Assembly (NCBI GenBank): GCA_003576845.1
Contig: QEVJ01000007.1
Location: 1 to 64,000 of the forward strand
Direction: 5' to 3'
Length of the DNA: 64,000 nt
Source: Planctomycetota bacterium
GTDB lineage: Bacteria; Planctomycetota; Planctomycetia; Pirellulales; PLA5
Numbering within the stretch: position 1 is the stretch's first letter; each line of letters begins with the position of its first letter. Shown piece by piece: positions 9,098 to 39,371 of this stretch. The translations under genes were made by a program, and so were the position numbers. The notes below the pieces were generated by a model that did not search any database, had not been told where the DNA came from, and saw only the letters and a list, made by a program, of their open reading frames with translations.

Positions 9098-9145
9098 GTC
9101 CCTCTCCGCGCCCTCTGCGAAACCTCCGCGCCCTCTGCGTTAAGG
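9098..9145. repeat. CTCTGCGTTAA-family repeat, copy 1
   Basis: Two imperfect copies of a unit of about 20 bp (cctc-tccgcgccctctgcg) are followed by ttaaggaac. The same core, ctctgcg(g)ttaa, occurs at 27559-27606 and 38650-38684. The element lies in the intergenic space between the divergent sulfatase operon and the membrane-protein gene at 9304. Confidence 0.65.
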
Positions 9146-9303
9146 AACGAACCAAGCCGTTTTCTCGTCCGACGCAACGGCTGTTTCGGGCAGCCATCCA
9201 ACGCGGCACGCAAAAAAGTCTCGCAATCCGCCGTGAACGATTCGCCGCCCCTGCGGTTGAGAGAGGGAAGTCGCAGCGTTCACCACGTCGCAGGAGTCCG
9301 ACC

Positions 9304-10029: not shown

Positions 10030-10914
10030 ATGAATACGACGCTCACAACGTCCGCCGTCGATTCGGAATACGCGCTGCAGCCGATTGCGGAGGCGCGCCT
10101 AGCCGACGATCCGCAACCGGCGGACGCCGCAAAGCTCGCCGACAGTCTCCGCGACGCGCCCAACGTTCCCAACCTCACCCTCTTCGGCCTCGTCGAACTG
10201 ATGCTCAAGAACGAGCGGCTCCTCGACCGGCTCTCCCGATCGAGCAACTTGCAGCGGGAGTTGATTCCTCGGTTCCTCGCGATTGGGCTGGCCGCGTACG
10301 GCGTGTTCGGCGTAATGCTTTCGACGTTCTTTTCCGTGGCAAAGGTCTGGCCCGAGTTGTCGGCCATCGCCGCGTGGCTGGCGACGCCCGGCGAAGAGTT
10401 GATCTACTTCGCAACGTCGCCCCATGCCAGCCTGTTGACGCATTGGCTCGACGGTTCGGCCTTCGCGCTCACCGCCGCGTTCGCGCTCGGACTCATCGGC
10501 GCGATCGGCGTCTGCCTGCCGAGCTTCTACTTCTACGGGCTGCTCGCCGGCGTGCGGACCACGATGCTGCACGTGACCACGCTCGCCCTCAAAGGCATGG
10601 CCGCAAGCGCCATCGCGCTCATGGGAGCGCTGCCGATCTACTTTGCCTTCGTCCTGGCGCTCGTGGTGTTCGACGCCCCGCACGAAATCGTGGCCCTCGT
10701 GTGCTACGTGGGCCTAGCCTTGCCGTTTATCGCCGGGCTGTGGGGAACCCGTTCGCTGTATCTGGGCTTCTTGTGCCTCGTCGACACGATGAAGCAAGAA
10801 TGCCAGGCCGACCGGGCGTGCTTCCTGCGGCGGCTGTTGCTGTCGTGGAGCGGCTGCTTCACCGCAGTCACACCGGTAATGATCTTCACCCTGTGGGAAT
10901 TCATGAGCCGCTAA
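10030..10914 (+). CDS. Integral membrane protein, function unknown
   Basis: 294 aa from the ATG at 10030, chosen over an in-frame GTG at 9964 because the extra residues would be translated repeat sequence. The first 75 residues are hydrophilic and rich in Ala and Asp. About six hydrophobic segments follow (near residues 80-105, 140-170, 175-200, 205-230, 235-260 and 270-290). The overall layout repeats that of the gene before it, so the pair may be paralogues or partners. No catalytic motif is visible. A long hairpin at 10924-10997 separates it from the pspA-like gene. Function unknown. An envelope-stress role is suggested only by its position. Confidence 0.72.
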   Translation: MNTTLTTSAVDSEYALQPIAEARLADDPQPADAAKLADSLRDAPNVPNLTLFGLVELMLKNERLLDRLSRSSNLQRELIPRFLAIGLAAYGVFGVMLSTFFSVAKVWPELSAIAAWLATPGEELIYFATSPHASLLTHWLDGSAFALTAAFALGLIGAIGVCLPSFYFYGLLAGVRTTMLHVTTLALKGMAASAIALMGALPIYFAFVLALVVFDAPHEIVALVCYVGLALPFIAGLWGTRSLYLGFLCLVDTMKQECQADRACFLRRLLLSWSGCFTAVTPVMIFTLWEFMSR

Positions 10915-10923
10915 TACCTGAAA

Positions 10924-10997
10924 CTGTAGGAGGCGAATCTTTTCGCCGATGGCGCTAAGCGTTGCCGTGAATCGGCGAAAGGATTCGCCTCCTACAG
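10924..10997. repeat. 27-bp inverted repeat between membrane protein and pspA
   Basis: The arms 10924-10950 and 10971-10997 are reverse complements over 27 bp with a single mismatch that becomes a G-U pair in RNA. The loop is 20 nt. The arm begins ctgtaggaggcgaatc. The hairpin starts 10 bp after the stop codon of the upstream gene and ends 24 bp before the pspA start. It has no following T-run, so it is not a standard intrinsic terminator. A mobile REP-like palindrome or an RNA processing/stability element is more likely. Confidence 0.85.
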
Positions 10998-16280: not shown

Positions 16281-16313
16281 CGTCGGTTCCTTAAACCCGG
16301 AGAGCACTGGGGA

Positions 16314-28507: not shown

Positions 28508-28550
28508 GGGTCAGGATTCGGGGATCGGGATTCAGGATTCGGGATTGGGG
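28507..28550. repeat. Heptameric repeat (gattcgg/gattcag) before the G8 gene
   Basis: Six heptads of the gattcgg, ggatcgg and gattcag kind fill the whole space between the DUF1080 stop and the G8-gene ATG. No Shine-Dalgarno sequence is visible for the latter. Confidence 0.78.
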
Positions 28551-28556
28551 ACTTCA

Positions 28557-30980
28557 ATGAGTACGTGGCGTCGAGTGTTCGATTGGCGCGTTGTAGTCAT
28601 TCTTCTTGCGGGAATGGCGGCCGTTGCGCCGTCCAAGGAGCCGCCCCGGAAGCTCTCCGACGACGCGACCCCCGCGGGCACGCTGAGGTTCGACGTGCAA
28701 TCCGTCGCTAGCGGCGCGTGGTCTTCGGAAAAAACCTGGTCGCCGCGGCCGCCGCGGGCTGGGGATCGCGTGAAGATCTCCGCCGGCACGCGCGTCGTAT
28801 ACGACGTCGCGAGCGACGACGTGATCCGCATGATTCAAGTCGTCGGCACGCTGTCGTTCGCCCGCGATCGCGATACGCTGCTCAACGTCGGCATCGTCAA
28901 GGTGCAGGCCAGCGAGACGTGCAGCGAATCGGGCTTTGCTTGCGATTTCGCCCACGCGACCGACGCCGGCGAGCCGACGCTCGCGCCGACCGGTCCGATG
29001 CCCGCCTTCGAAGTCGGCACGCTCAACGAGCCGATTCCTGCCGAGCACACCGCGCGGATTCGCCTGCATTATCTCGACGGCATGGACAAGGACGACGCTC
29101 CGGCGCTCGCCTGCTGCTCCGCGCGGATGGATTTGCACGGCGCGCCGATGAATCGCACCTGGGTCGATCTTGGCGCAGATGCCGGCAAAGGCGACAAACT
29201 GGTCGTGCTCGCCGAGGACGTGACCGGCTGGCGCGCGGGCGATGACATCATCGTCACCGCGTCGCTGCACAACAACAGCCTCGGGGGGCAGTATCGCGAC
29301 GACCCGAGCATGAGGAGCACCGAACAGCGCCGCATCAAGGCGATCGACGGCCGCAAGCTGACGCTCGACAACCCGCTCGAACACCGCCACTTCGGCAGCG
29401 GCGACTTTCGCAGCGAAGTCGCCAACCTCTCGCGGAACGTCATTATCGAAAGCGCCGACCCCAACGGCGTCCGCGGACACACGGTCTATCACTGTTTCAG
29501 CCAGGGCGGCATCAGTTACGCCCGATTCGCCCACCTCGGCAAGGAGAACGTCCTCGGACGGTATGCGATTCACTTTCACCTGCTCGAAGACAGCAACCGC
29601 GGCAGCCAGGTCCTCGGCGCGGCGATCGTCGATTCCGAAAACCGCTGGGTGACGATCCACGGCACCGATTACATGGTCGTTCGCGATTGCGTCGGCTACG
29701 GTTCTGTCGGGCACGGCTTTTTCCTCGAAGACGGCACGGAGACCTACACCGTCCTCGACCGCAATCTCGGCGTGAACGCCTTTCGCGGCAAGCCGCTGCC
29801 CAAACAAGTGTTATCGTTCGATCCCAACGACGGCGCGGCGTTCTGGTGGGCCAACGGCCGCAACACGTTCGTCCGCAACACGTCCTGCGAGAACGACGAA
29901 TACGGCTTCCGCTACGACAGCCAGAAGCGGAGCAATTTCGATAGCAACCTGAGCGTTCGCACGCCGACGGGCAGTTTCGAGACGACCGACATCCGCACGA
30001 TTCCGATTTACCGCTTCGAGGGCAACGAGGCCCACAGCGAGGGTTTGTACGGCATGGTAATCGCCGGAACCGATCGGGTCGCGCCGGACCTCAAACATCC
30101 GCACGTGCTCAAGAACCTGCGCATCTGGCAGGTCCATTACGCGCTTCGGCCGCAAGTGCCAGCCATGTGGATCGAAAACGTGACGATCGATCACACCGTG
30201 TATGGCGTCTATCGGCCGGAGTTCGAGAACCACGAGTATCGCAACCTCCGCATCGCCTCGACGAGCAGCGAGCCGTTCAACCGCGGCCAGGACGACGACA
30301 GCACGCAGCACGGCACGATCGCGGTCGACGGCCTCACGTTCACGAACGTCGAAGGCGACGGCATTCCGCTCATTCAGATGAGTGACAACAACCCCAGCGG
30401 CACGGCCGAATCGCACTTTCGCAACGTCCGCGTCGAACGCCGCGAGGGCCGGCGACAAAAGGCGCTCGTCGACCGCGGCGGCGGCGCGGAAGTCGATCCC
30501 CAGACGCCGACGAGCGTGCCCGTGTTCCTGCACGACTACTTCGGCCCCGGGAAACACGCGAAAATCGTCAGCACGGCGGCGGGCGACTTTCCCAAGGATT
30601 CGCAGGAGTTCCGCCGCGAGCCGCCGCTGACGGGCGAGGAATCGCGCGTCGCGGAAGTCAAGGACGTCGCCTTTCCAAAGCTGCTCGATCCCGTCGACGA
30701 CGCGCCGCCGGCAACGATCATCACGTATCCTCCCCGCGGAGTTTCGGCCAAGCGAGACGGCAATCGCCTCCTCGTCCGCGGCACGACCACCGACAATGTG
30801 CGTACCAAGCGCGTCGTGGTCAACGGCGTCGCCGCCCGCGACGTCGACTACAACTTCCATCAATGGGAAGCCGTGCTGGAAAACGTCTCGCCGGGCGAGG
30901 TAACGATCGAGGCCCACGCCGAAGACGCGGCGGGAAACGTCGAGCGGAACGCTCACCGGCTGGTGATCGCCGTGGAGTGA
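28557..30980 (+). CDS. Secreted G8-domain parallel beta-helix protein
   Basis: 807 aa from the ATG at 28557 (a TTG four codons upstream is less likely). The signal peptide spans about residues 1-25. The G8 domain (about 50-170) is marked by SGAWSSEKTWSPRPPRAGD, then GTRVVYDVASDDVIRMIQVVG. A long right-handed beta-helix follows, with many His/Asn/Gly turns such as YAIHFHLLEDSNRGSQVLGA and NTSCENDEYGFRYDS. The last 80 residues look like an Ig-like module (PATIITYPPRGVSAKRDG). G8 domains occur in animal hyaluronan-binding CEMIP/TMEM2 and in some bacteria, where a role in binding or cutting glycans is assumed. The activity of this protein cannot be stated. It shares the strand and close spacing with the DUF1080 gene. 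Confidence 0.88.
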   Translation: MSTWRRVFDWRVVVILLAGMAAVAPSKEPPRKLSDDATPAGTLRFDVQSVASGAWSSEKTWSPRPPRAGDRVKISAGTRVVYDVASDDVIRMIQVVGTLSFARDRDTLLNVGIVKVQASETCSESGFACDFAHATDAGEPTLAPTGPMPAFEVGTLNEPIPAEHTARIRLHYLDGMDKDDAPALACCSARMDLHGAPMNRTWVDLGADAGKGDKLVVLAEDVTGWRAGDDIIVTASLHNNSLGGQYRDDPSMRSTEQRRIKAIDGRKLTLDNPLEHRHFGSGDFRSEVANLSRNVIIESADPNGVRGHTVYHCFSQGGISYARFAHLGKENVLGRYAIHFHLLEDSNRGSQVLGAAIVDSENRWVTIHGTDYMVVRDCVGYGSVGHGFFLEDGTETYTVLDRNLGVNAFRGKPLPKQVLSFDPNDGAAFWWANGRNTFVRNTSCENDEYGFRYDSQKRSNFDSNLSVRTPTGSFETTDIRTIPIYRFEGNEAHSEGLYGMVIAGTDRVAPDLKHPHVLKNLRIWQVHYALRPQVPAMWIENVTIDHTVYGVYRPEFENHEYRNLRIASTSSEPFNRGQDDDSTQHGTIAVDGLTFTNVEGDGIPLIQMSDNNPSGTAESHFRNVRVERREGRRQKALVDRGGGAEVDPQTPTSVPVFLHDYFGPGKHAKIVSTAAGDFPKDSQEFRREPPLTGEESRVAEVKDVAFPKLLDPVDDAPPATIITYPPRGVSAKRDGNRLLVRGTTTDNVRTKRVVVNGVAARDVDYNFHQWEAVLENVSPGEVTIEAHAEDAAGNVERNAHRLVIAVE

Positions 30981-30990
30981 GGCGGTAGCA

Positions 30991-31098
30991 AGTGATGAAT
31001 GACGATTGATCAACGATGAGCGATGAACGGGGCATTCTCATCGCCCATAGCCATCACTTAACTCATATCTCATCACTCACCGCTCATCACGCATCACG
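30991..31098. repeat. Heptamer-type inverted repeat (gatgagc / tcatcac)
   Basis: Left heptads (gtgatga, acgatga, gcgatga) at 30991-31028 face right heptads (tcatcac, tcaccgc, gcatcac) at about 31050-31098. Together they make an imperfect hairpin. It lies between the G8 and MFS genes. Confidence 0.78.
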
Positions 31099-31141
31099 AA
31101 CCTGGTTCGTTGCCATTTCACCTTGTTGGACGGTCGCATCG

Positions 31142-32617
31142 GTGAGCGAACCTTCTTCACACGATCCGTCGCCAGTCCCCAGCCCCCAGCCCCCAGCCCC
31201 TGCTACCCGCGTCCGCTACCGCGTCCTCGCCATCTTCTGCATCGCCGCCGCCATCGGCTACATCCAGCGGTACGCGATCAACTATCTCAACGACGCGATT
31301 CGCTTCGACGTCGGGCTGAACAAAGACCAGATGGGCTGGGTCATGTTCAGCTTCTTCATGGCCTATGCCGCCATGATGCTGCCGTCGGGCTGGATCGCCG
31401 ATCGCTTTGGCAGCCGGCGGATGCTCGCCGCGTGCGCCTTGTTGTGGTCGATCGCGACCGCGCTCATGGCAACCGCGGAAAACCTTGCCGGTCTCGTCAC
31501 CGTGTGGGCCGTCATGGGCGCGGCGCAGGCCGGCTTGTTTCCCAGTGCGGTAATCGGCCTGCGGCGATGGCTGCCGGCGACGCGGCGAGCGCTGGCCAGC
31601 GGCATGCTGGCGAGCTTCATGAACGTCGGCGCGGTCCTCTCTCCGCTTGCCGCCGGCGCGCTGGTCGAGAACGCCGACTTCACGTGGCGCGAAGTCTTCG
31701 TGTGCCTCGCCGCGCCGGGCGTTGTCTGGGCCGTGTGGTACTACGCGTGGTATCGCGATCGGCCGCAGGATCACCGAGGGGTCAACGCGGCGGAGCTTGC
31801 GGTTATAGGATCGAGGATCGAGGATCGAGGATCGAGGGATGAAGGCGAAGGGTCGAGGACCAAGGGAGGAGGATTGCGGAGTGAGGATGGAGAGGACGGG
31901 GCGCCGCTGGGATCGTCCACCGTTCTTTCCCTCAATCCTCGATCCCCAATCCTCAATCCTTCGCCCTCGATCCTCAATCCTCCATCCTCCACGCCCGTCT
32001 GGCTCGTGCTGTCGACGAGTCCCCGGATGTGGCTCATCTGCGCACAGCACTTTCTCCGTGCGGCGGCGCAAGTATTCTTCGGAACCTGGTTCGCCACGTT
32101 CTTGCGTGAGAGTCCCGGCATGTCGGCCGACGACGTGGACTGGGCGTCGAGCCTGCCGCCAATGATGCTGATCGCCGGATCGCTCGTCGGCGGCGTCGTG
32201 TCCGATTGGCTGCTGCGCGCGACGGGCAGCCGCCGCGTGAGCCGCCAAGGGCTGGCCGTCGTGAACTTGCTCCTCTGCGCGGCGATGTTCTTCGTCGCGG
32301 CGACGGTGGACGACATCTGGACGCGAGTGTGGCTCATTTGCGCCGGATGCTTCTTCATGACCATCGGCGGCGTGAGTTCGTACACGATCACGATGGACTT
32401 GGGCGGCGCCTATGTCGCCACCGTGTTCAGCGCGATGAACATGTTCGGCAGTCTTGGCTCCGCCGCGTTTCCCAAGTACGTCGGTTGGCTCGTTCACCAG
32501 ACCGGCAATTGGGATTACGTGCTGTATTCAATCGTCGCGATTTATCTCGTGGCGGCGGCGTGCTGGGCGGCGATCAATCCCAATGGGTCGCTGTTCGAGC
32601 GGGCTAGCGATGAGTGA
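31142..32617 (+). CDS. MFS transporter (ACS-like) with a repeat-encoded central loop
   Basis: 491 aa from a GTG at 31142. An upstream ATG at 31016 would translate a hairpin repeat and was rejected. Twelve membrane helices of the anion:cation symporter group are recognisable, beginning RYRVLAIFCIAAAIGYIQRY. The family loop motif appears as GWIADRFGSRRM after helix 2. Helix 6 ends at YYAWYRDRPQDHRGVNAAEL and helix 7 starts at MWLICAQHFLRAAAQVFFGT. Between them lies a stretch of about 62 residues encoded by a heptamer-repeat hairpin (31807-31991). It has a 7-residue period and is read through in frame. Another heptamer run encodes the Pro/Ser-rich N-terminus. Homologues in this group typically import sugar acids or organic anions. 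The neighbours suggest uptake of a glycan breakdown product. Confidence 0.88.
   Translation: MSEPSSHDPSPVPSPQPPAPATRVRYRVLAIFCIAAAIGYIQRYAINYLNDAIRFDVGLNKDQMGWVMFSFFMAYAAMMLPSGWIADRFGSRRMLAACALLWSIATALMATAENLAGLVTVWAVMGAAQAGLFPSAVIGLRRWLPATRRALASGMLASFMNVGAVLSPLAAGALVENADFTWREVFVCLAAPGVVWAVWYYAWYRDRPQDHRGVNAAELAVIGSRIEDRGSRDEGEGSRTKGGGLRSEDGEDGAPLGSSTVLSLNPRSPILNPSPSILNPPSSTPVWLVLSTSPRMWLICAQHFLRAAAQVFFGTWFATFLRESPGMSADDVDWASSLPPMMLIAGSLVGGVVSDWLLRATGSRRVSRQGLAVVNLLLCAAMFFVAATVDDIWTRVWLICAGCFFMTIGGVSSYTITMDLGGAYVATVFSAMNMFGSLGSAAFPKYVGWLVHQTGNWDYVLYSIVAIYLVAAACWAAINPNGSLFERASDE
31807..31991. repeat. Heptamer inverted-repeat element inside the MFS gene
   Basis: The left arm 31807 to about 31896 is made of 7-bp units of the gatcgag/gatggag/gattgcg kind. 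The right arm, about 31929-31991, is made of tcgatcc/tcaatcc/tccatcc units. The arms are imperfect reverse complements around a 32-bp centre. The element keeps the reading frame and has no stop codon. Because 7 x 3 = 21, the translation repeats every 7 residues, for example SRIEDRG, SRDEGEG, SRTKGGG, then PRSPILN, PSPSILN. The same kind of element is otherwise intergenic in this window. Confidence 0.9.
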
Positions 32618-32707
32618 TGATTGCTGAGCGATGAGCGACGAACGATAATGCCGAAGCCTTACGGCCCTCACTCCTCATTCCCCACTCCTCATTCCTCATT
32701 CCTCACC
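32607..32707. repeat. Heptamer-type inverted repeat overlapping the MFS 3' end
   Basis: Left heptads (gatgagt, gatgatt, gcgatga, gcgacga) run from 32607 to 32648 and include the MFS stop codon. Right heptads (tcctcat, tccccac, tcctcac) run from 32666 to 32707, ending 4 bp before the next gene's start codon. The repeat therefore spans the entire intergenic gap and replaces any ribosome binding site. Confidence 0.82.
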
Positions 32708-38410: not shown

Positions 38411-38687
38411 TTGGTTTGTCTTTTCAACGCAGAGGACGCAGAGTTTTCGCAGAGGGCGCCGAGCGGAAATTGGCCGCAACCTAAGCGGTCTCTCGAAACA
38501 CTAAGCCACGGAGACACGGAGAAATGCCGAGGATGATTGATGAATGCTAAGCGCCGAATGACGAACGACCGGAAAGCCCACGCGCACGAAATCATTATTG
38601 TTCGCTCATCGCTTGTCGGTCATCGCTTTTCTCCACACCTTCTCTTCGGCCTCTCTGCGAAACCTCTGCGTTAAAAAACCAACCAAC
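38411..38687. repeat. Nested repeat block between tssL and tssM (includes CTCTGCGTTAA copy 3)
   Basis: The outer arms 38411-38454 (aacgcagagg/cgcagag units) and 38650-38684 (ctctgcg/ctctgcgttaa units) are imperfect reverse complements. The inner arms at about 38530-38571 (gatgatt/gatgaat/gacgaac heptads) and 38603-38632 (tcgctca/tcgcttg/tcggtca heptads) form a second hairpin inside the first. The block fills nearly the whole gap between the two tss genes. Confidence 0.75.
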
Positions 38688-38696
38688 CTGTTTCCG

Positions 38697-39371
38697 TTAA
38701 CCGAGCCATTGGAAGAATCGAGCATAGTTGATCGTGGCCAGCGCGATCGTAATCGCGGCGAGGATGATCCCGATGAGCGACCACGTGACGAGCATCGACT
38801 CGCCTTCCCGCGGGGCGGCGTCGTAGCCGGGATTGGCCGGCGTCACGTCGAGCGGCGGGCGATCGAGTCCGAGCGTGATGCTCTTGCTCGTCACGCGGAG
38901 CCATTGTTCGATGGTCGGCGGGAGGTCGTAGCGCCTTGCCCAGACGTCGGCCTCGCCCGGCTCGCCGTGGACGTAGATGCCCCCGAAACCGAGCACGACG
39001 GCGATGTAATACACTTCGAGGGCATCGCGGCGTTTCATTTCCGCCGACGCCGCCCGCTTGGCGTTCTCGAAGAACCGCGTCGCGCGGTTGTTCGATTGGA
39101 AGTGCTCCCATTCGAGGGCGTGCTCCTTCCACCACACGCAGCCTTCCCACGTGGCGCCGATGAGCACTTCGTCGATCCAGGCCACGAGGGCGTACTTCGC
39201 CAGGTCCCACTCCGGGCCGCGGCCCAACTCGTTTTCCGACTGGTTGAGCAGCGCCTGAATCCGCGTCCGCTCAGTCTCCGGCTGGACGGTCTCGCCCTTG
39301 TCGATCCGCTGTAGCAGATCGAGCACCTGAGCGAACACGCGATCGACGGCAATGGCGAACTTGGGACGCAC
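38697..39371 (-). CDS. tssL: DotU/TssL-like inner membrane protein
   Basis: 224 aa from a GTG at 39371. This is the DotU/TssL fold: an N-terminal cytosolic helical hook ending in a single membrane helix at the C-terminus (about 193-216). The conserved block appears as AKYALVAWIDEVLIG followed by ATWEGCVWWKEHALEWEHFQ, and FFENAKRA lies in the usual place. In type VI secretion TssL joins TssM and docks the baseplate protein TssK. All three proteins are encoded here side by side, which supports the assignment of each. The tail before the helix (residues about 165-190) is Pro-rich. The upstream gap to tssK is 112 bp and filled with heptamer repeats. Confidence 0.9.
   Translation of the reverse strand: MRPKFAIAVDRVFAQVLDLLQRIDKGETVQPETERTRIQALLNQSENELGRGPEWDLAKYALVAWIDEVLIGATWEGCVWWKEHALEWEHFQSNNRATRFFENAKRAASAEMKRRDALEVYYIAVVLGFGGIYVHGEPGEADVWARRYDLPPTIEQWLRVTSKSITLGLDRPPLDVTPANPGYDAAPREGESMLVTWSLIGIILAAITIALATINYARFFQWLG

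Follow-up and report, generated by a model that had tools for sequence, protein, structure and literature searches.

Within a 64,000-nt stretch of DNA (hereafter the window), which forms part of contig C113 of a 7.05 Mb planctomycete genome that is 99% complete, we examined an MFS_1 transporter gene that carries a heptamer hairpin in its interior. The open reading frame at 31016-32617 is open from an ATG at its first position, however the best-scoring and probable start is a GTG further downstream (Table 1). The MFS_1 profile spans the whole membrane domain, as expected of a full-length MFS_1 protein, and purifying selection acts on both halves of the transporter, with dN/dS values of about 0.25 and 0.17 when compared to L058, the closest orthologue. 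An AlphaFold (AF2) model retains the helical MFS fold with a mean pLDDT of 86.7, and the only internal positions that fall below 50 are residues 228-277 of the trimmed protein, corresponding to the insert between TM6 and TM7. Further heptamer repeats lie upstream of the gene, in its N-terminal tail and at its end.

Table 1 The MFS_1 transporter gene and its heptamer repeats in window coordinates. Arm boundaries within the insert were placed by eye.
Feature	Position	Strand	Basis
Heptamer hairpin 5' of the MFS gene; contains ATG 31016, from which the long ORF is open	30985..31100
MFS_1 transporter gene	31142..32617	+	Pfam MFS_1, E 7.5e-51; coding model; dN/dS of both halves vs L058
Second heptamer array in the gene, (CCAGCCC)n, N-terminal tail, PSPVPSPQPPAPA	31167..31201	+	TRF
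Left, purine-rich arm of the insert: (GGATCGA)4 then degenerate heptamers; translated GSRIEDRGSRDEGEGSRTKGGGLRSEDG	31807..31892	+
35-nt centre between the arms; partly self-complementary, GGACG...CGTCC	31893..31927	+
Right, pyrimidine-rich arm of the insert: (CCTCAAT/CCTCGAT)n; translated SLNPRSPILNPSPSILNPPS	31928..31990	+
Heptamer hairpin at the gene end; left arm encodes the last codons and the TGA stop	32604..32706

The insert (31807-31990, 184 bp) is an imperfect heptamer palindrome consisting of a purine arm, the 35-nt centre and a pyrimidine arm. It contains 104 period-7 matches, as compared to 58 +/- 5.6 when each part is shuffled separately (maximum of 78 in 2000 shuffles), and TRF detects 7-nt units at 31807-31837 (100%) and 31930-31989. 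The arms are up to 88% complementary over 33 nt, and the predicted RNA fold reaches -107 kcal/mol (z = -4.9; z = -3.0 for the DNA fold). The reading frame crosses the insert without a stop, and the encoded segment, located in the TM6-TM7 loop, repeats with a period of seven residues, first as SRIEDRG/SRDEGEG/SRTKGGG and then as LNPRSPI/LNPSPSI/LNPPSST, one half being charged and the other made up of Pro, Ser and Leu. A preliminary description had reported a heptamer hairpin at 31807-31991, between helix 6 and helix 7, in a frame free of stops and preserved downstream, with a 7-residue period in the protein and halves of opposite character. We confirm the hairpin and each of these features: the coordinates agree to within a few bases, the structural model places the insert between TM6 and TM7, and the two halves of the transporter are conserved in one frame.

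We compared the loop, taken as the stretch between I264 and W329, with that of 19 aligned homologues from the same order. It comprises 64 residues in the window protein and 15-37 (median 20) in the homologues, and the insert is absent from all 19. L058 (G030:C270; public record JALHLM010000270.1), the sole match of a contig scan, is 62% and 71% identical to the window protein in the two flanks, reads ALIAAGGDAEPSHASRAPW in the loop and has a matching gene neighbour, from which it is separated by a spacer of about 27 nt without the hairpin that ends the window gene. A congener copy of the MFS gene was not found, which limits the view of the empty site to proteins of 71% identity or below. The net gain of the window loop amounts to 147 nt, or 49 residues, relative to L058, and to 27-49 residues across the homologues; the two arms together account for about 148 nt. 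Deleting 31807-31990 would leave about 5 residues, where every homologue has at least 15. Since the net gain is 49 residues and not about 62, the old loop must have been either replaced or sited between the arms. The best match to the L058 loop inside the insert is the centre (GEDGAPLGSS vs GGDAEPSHAS), with 32% of shuffled loops matching equally well, and this centre is possibly the old host loop. The claim that orthologues lack the loop therefore holds, no homologue showing an alignable loop of similar length, whereas the picture of a clean insertion of about 62 residues, with flanks that align without a gap, has to be abandoned, as the homologues already hold 15-37 residues at this position.

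To place the insert in its genomic setting, we performed a census of period-7 arrays in 1.74 of the 7.05 Mb, about one quarter of the genome, using our own gene caller. At the stricter threshold this revealed 174 period-7 regions, as compared to 2-8 for most control periods, bearing in mind that period 14 is twice 7. Of these regions, 94 touch a gene edge, 67 lie between genes and 13 fall within genes, and about 10 of the latter, distributed over six genes, are real arrays as judged by eye; with 140 expected from the coding fraction, period-7 arrays avoid gene interiors. Interior matches in L038, L047 and L247 have a positive coding score and were discounted by eye as background of the coding periodicity, and a region at 39355 considered as an intragenic array actually lies between two genes. 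Paired arms run purine-then-pyrimidine in 83 of 85 cases and the reverse in 2. Across the first 1.14 Mb, the two arms of an element are much more alike than arms that have been re-paired (z = 9.9, 0/5000 permutations), indicating that most elements are genuine palindromes rather than pairs of arrays that met by chance. In the vicinity of genes, purine-rich arrays follow stops in 61 of 78 cases and pyrimidine-rich arrays precede starts in 44 of 49; this orientation was not retained as a separate rule, since the purine-first polarity of the hairpins probably accounts for it whatever the arrangement of the genes.

The commonest array unit in the genome is GGGATTC, and most units of in-gene arrays rank with the most frequent array units of the genome that carries them. 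The insert had been described as being of the same kind as the intergenic elements, which agrees with the census: period-7 arrays are common between genes, and the same units recur there. No sequence is common to all heptamer copies, as the units differ and BLAST matches only arms that share one heptamer, and inspection of the copies listed revealed neither shared ends (terminal inverted repeats or a GTAG/CGTC tag) nor target duplication.

Other repeats were noticed alongside these arrays. A palindromic element at window positions 10917-10997 (TGTAGGAGGCGAATC...), possibly a GTAG-type REP, has an empty site in the congener G001 and many copies elsewhere in that genome. The short stretch at 9103-9183 also has many copies in G001 and is apparently another dispersed repeat. 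At 38500-38680 lies a nested hairpin, with CGCAGAG-type arms outside and heptamer arms inside, the site of which is empty in G001. In the G001 orthologue (L139, about 10050-10120) of the window gene at 28545-30980, arms of GGAGACA and CTCCTGT bracket the start codon, so that part of the signal-peptide region is array-encoded.

Interior arrays are found in the genes for the MFS transporter, a PUFA-synthase-like protein, an ASPIC protein, PdxA, a GlcF-like protein and MetRS. MetG, the only methionyl-tRNA synthetase found in the genome, contains an in-frame (CCAACCT)n array (L246:5005-5076, G000:C110), the translation of which includes the tryptic peptide EGTINESAQPPTSNLQPPTSPEVHHFIGK. At the same site G001 (locus L268) carries (CCTCAAG)n, a unit located at some 15 places in G001, as against 2 contigs in the window genome, and four other genomes have no insert. 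Both MetG units are dispersed, each in the genome to which it belongs. As the sole MetRS gene carries a heptamer array, an essential enzyme evidently tolerates one. The PUFA-synthase-like gene (L192:8650-15885, G000:C117), which encodes ketoacyl synthase (KS), acyltransferase and FabA domains and was compared across seven genomes, holds five in-frame arrays in its loops and linkers; one arm pair brackets the conserved start of the second KS domain, and one linker is built from (GGGATTC)n here and from (GGGCAGT)n in G001. In the GlcF-like protein, both congeners carry arrays built from different units, and three other genomes lack them; the PdxA array is missing from G001, G013 and G014; and the ASPIC/FG-GAP protein is longer than its G014 counterpart by nine residues. 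The proposal that such elements are a route to new protein sequence is illustrated better by MetG, GlcF and the PUFA synthase, for which a congener is available, than by the MFS gene itself. We also entertain, tentatively and with the balance leaning against it, a broader scenario in which arrays invade permissive surface loops of core enzymes time and again at the same places and later swap units wholesale, possibly by array-to-array conversion, the genome-wide pool thereby constantly rewriting short stretches of essential proteins.

Several other explanations for the MFS segment were weighed. That it is an old functional loop of a transporter subfamily, its repeats having arisen by chance, is the least probable of them: the central loop varies naturally among MFS proteins and reaches 37 residues in one homologue, but the window loop is absent from every homologue, its period 7 and palindromy are extreme, and its units recur between genes. 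An assembly or binning artefact is scarcely more credible. Although the gene lies on a single MAG contig and repeats are prone to misassembly, the arms are diverged rather than identical, and in-frame arrays occupy the corresponding MetG, GlcF and PUFA-synthase sites in an independent congener MAG. The strong predicted fold, together with the location of most arrays at gene ends, could indicate a regulatory or terminator-like RNA hairpin, with the transporter made as two separate halves; this is improbable, if a little less so, given that the frame is open with no internal stop or gene boundary and that both halves evolve under purifying selection in one frame.

A different question is how the palindrome came to occupy the loop, as the two arms may have grown around the original loop, retained as the 35-nt centre, for example through slippage and templated inverted copying, instead of a ready-made hairpin being inserted. 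The agreement between the combined length of the arms and the net gain over L058 is consistent with such growth, as is the finding that the L058 loop best matches the centre, and elsewhere arms bracket host sequence, namely the conserved start of the second KS domain in the PUFA synthase and a start codon in congener G001. However, the match to the centre is not significant, being equalled by about a third of shuffles, and the centre of the element at window position 16293 appears to be extra relative to the congener. Growth around the loop is thus a serious contender, to which we assign somewhat less than even odds.

Taken as a whole, these data support the earlier interpretation of the MFS element, and we consider it likely (probability of roughly 0.8) that the segment represents a single member of a class of heptamer palindromes dispersed throughout the genome, and that it either formed in or moved into the cytoplasmic TM6-TM7 loop and is tolerated there, presumably being translated as a near-neutral disordered linker. 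Arrays of this class would arise via replication- or repair-linked templated copying and not through a dedicated transposase. Since 7 shares no factor with 3, every frame of a heptamer array runs through all seven cyclic triplets, and the unit of a perfect array is consequently open either in every frame or in none. No TAA, TAG or TGA occurs in the cyclic triplets of GGATCGA, GGGATTC, GGGCAGT or CCAACCT. Persistence of the MFS insert would then depend on a unit such as GGATCGA, whose seven cyclic triplets hold no stop and which as a perfect array would be open in three frames, on a net length change that is a multiple of three, and on a flexible, length-variable loop as the site; under these circumstances the insert would be translated as a roughly neutral disordered linker. 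Of the frame readings of 50 complete palindromes, 28% contain no stop, and 10% additionally have a length of 3n. With about 10% suited in both respects, and a flexible loop as the site, a few in-gene copies would be expected to persist even without a selected function.

In-frame palindromic insertions are best known from Rickettsia and Wolbachia, where the elements have fixed sequences. The Rickettsia palindromic elements (RPEs) are palindromes of 105-150 bp found between genes and in frame in conserved protein genes, with at least one RPE-bearing product (gmk) translated and active (PMC2229807, PMC10969869). Like these, the heptamer palindromes occur both in frame and between genes, the 184-bp example here being somewhat longer with an imperfect stem (z -4.9), but RPE families keep a conserved sequence and peptide, whereas the constants here are period 7 and arm polarity. 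The likeness to RPEs drawn in the preliminary description is therefore apt for the way the elements work and not for their membership: as its copies share no conserved sequence, the heptamer palindrome is not an RPE.

Among heptamer repeats, the P6b stem of the cyanobacterial trnL(UAA) intron has degenerate heptamers on both hairpin sides in a functional gene (PMC3488679, PMC4476775), and in Nostoc, as here, one unit class repeatedly replaces another at one site; P6b, however, belongs to an RNA gene and a single site, whereas the present arrays occupy many sites, some of them translated. In the part of PMC4692102 cited here, GGGNATC heptamers of Xanthomonas and Nostoc form short direct arrays (G-quadruplex) that are under-represented in genes. 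The commonest unit in our genome, GGGATTC, is of the same type, with arrays likewise G-rich after stops and C-rich before starts, but in-frame palindromes do not feature in that part of the account. Both the excess of tandem 7-mers and the gene-end orientation that characterise dispersed arrays of the Nostoc/Xanthomonas type were found here. The TAACTGA repeats of Beggiatoaceae are heptamer arrays that are mostly intergenic, with some in ORFs (PMC4679880), and differ in having one unit, in direct repeats, mostly at ORF ends. Palindromic repeats that lie partly within genes are also known as GTAG/CGTC REPs (PMC3733652) and PARCELs (PMC2996958), but these have a conserved motif or a 25-residue domain, and GTAG REPs are tied to RAYT transposases. 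No description of in-frame heptamer palindromes in Planctomycetes was found in the literature searched, which extended to few subscription papers.

Our analysis thus points to a class of elements without fixed sequence, recognisable by period 7 and arm polarity, that inserts in frame in a planctomycete lineage and reaches even its sole MetRS. The rule that the three frames of a unit are either open or closed together provides a simple, testable predictor of which arrays are able to enter genes, and heptamer arrays of this kind would represent a natural source of new disordered protein segments.
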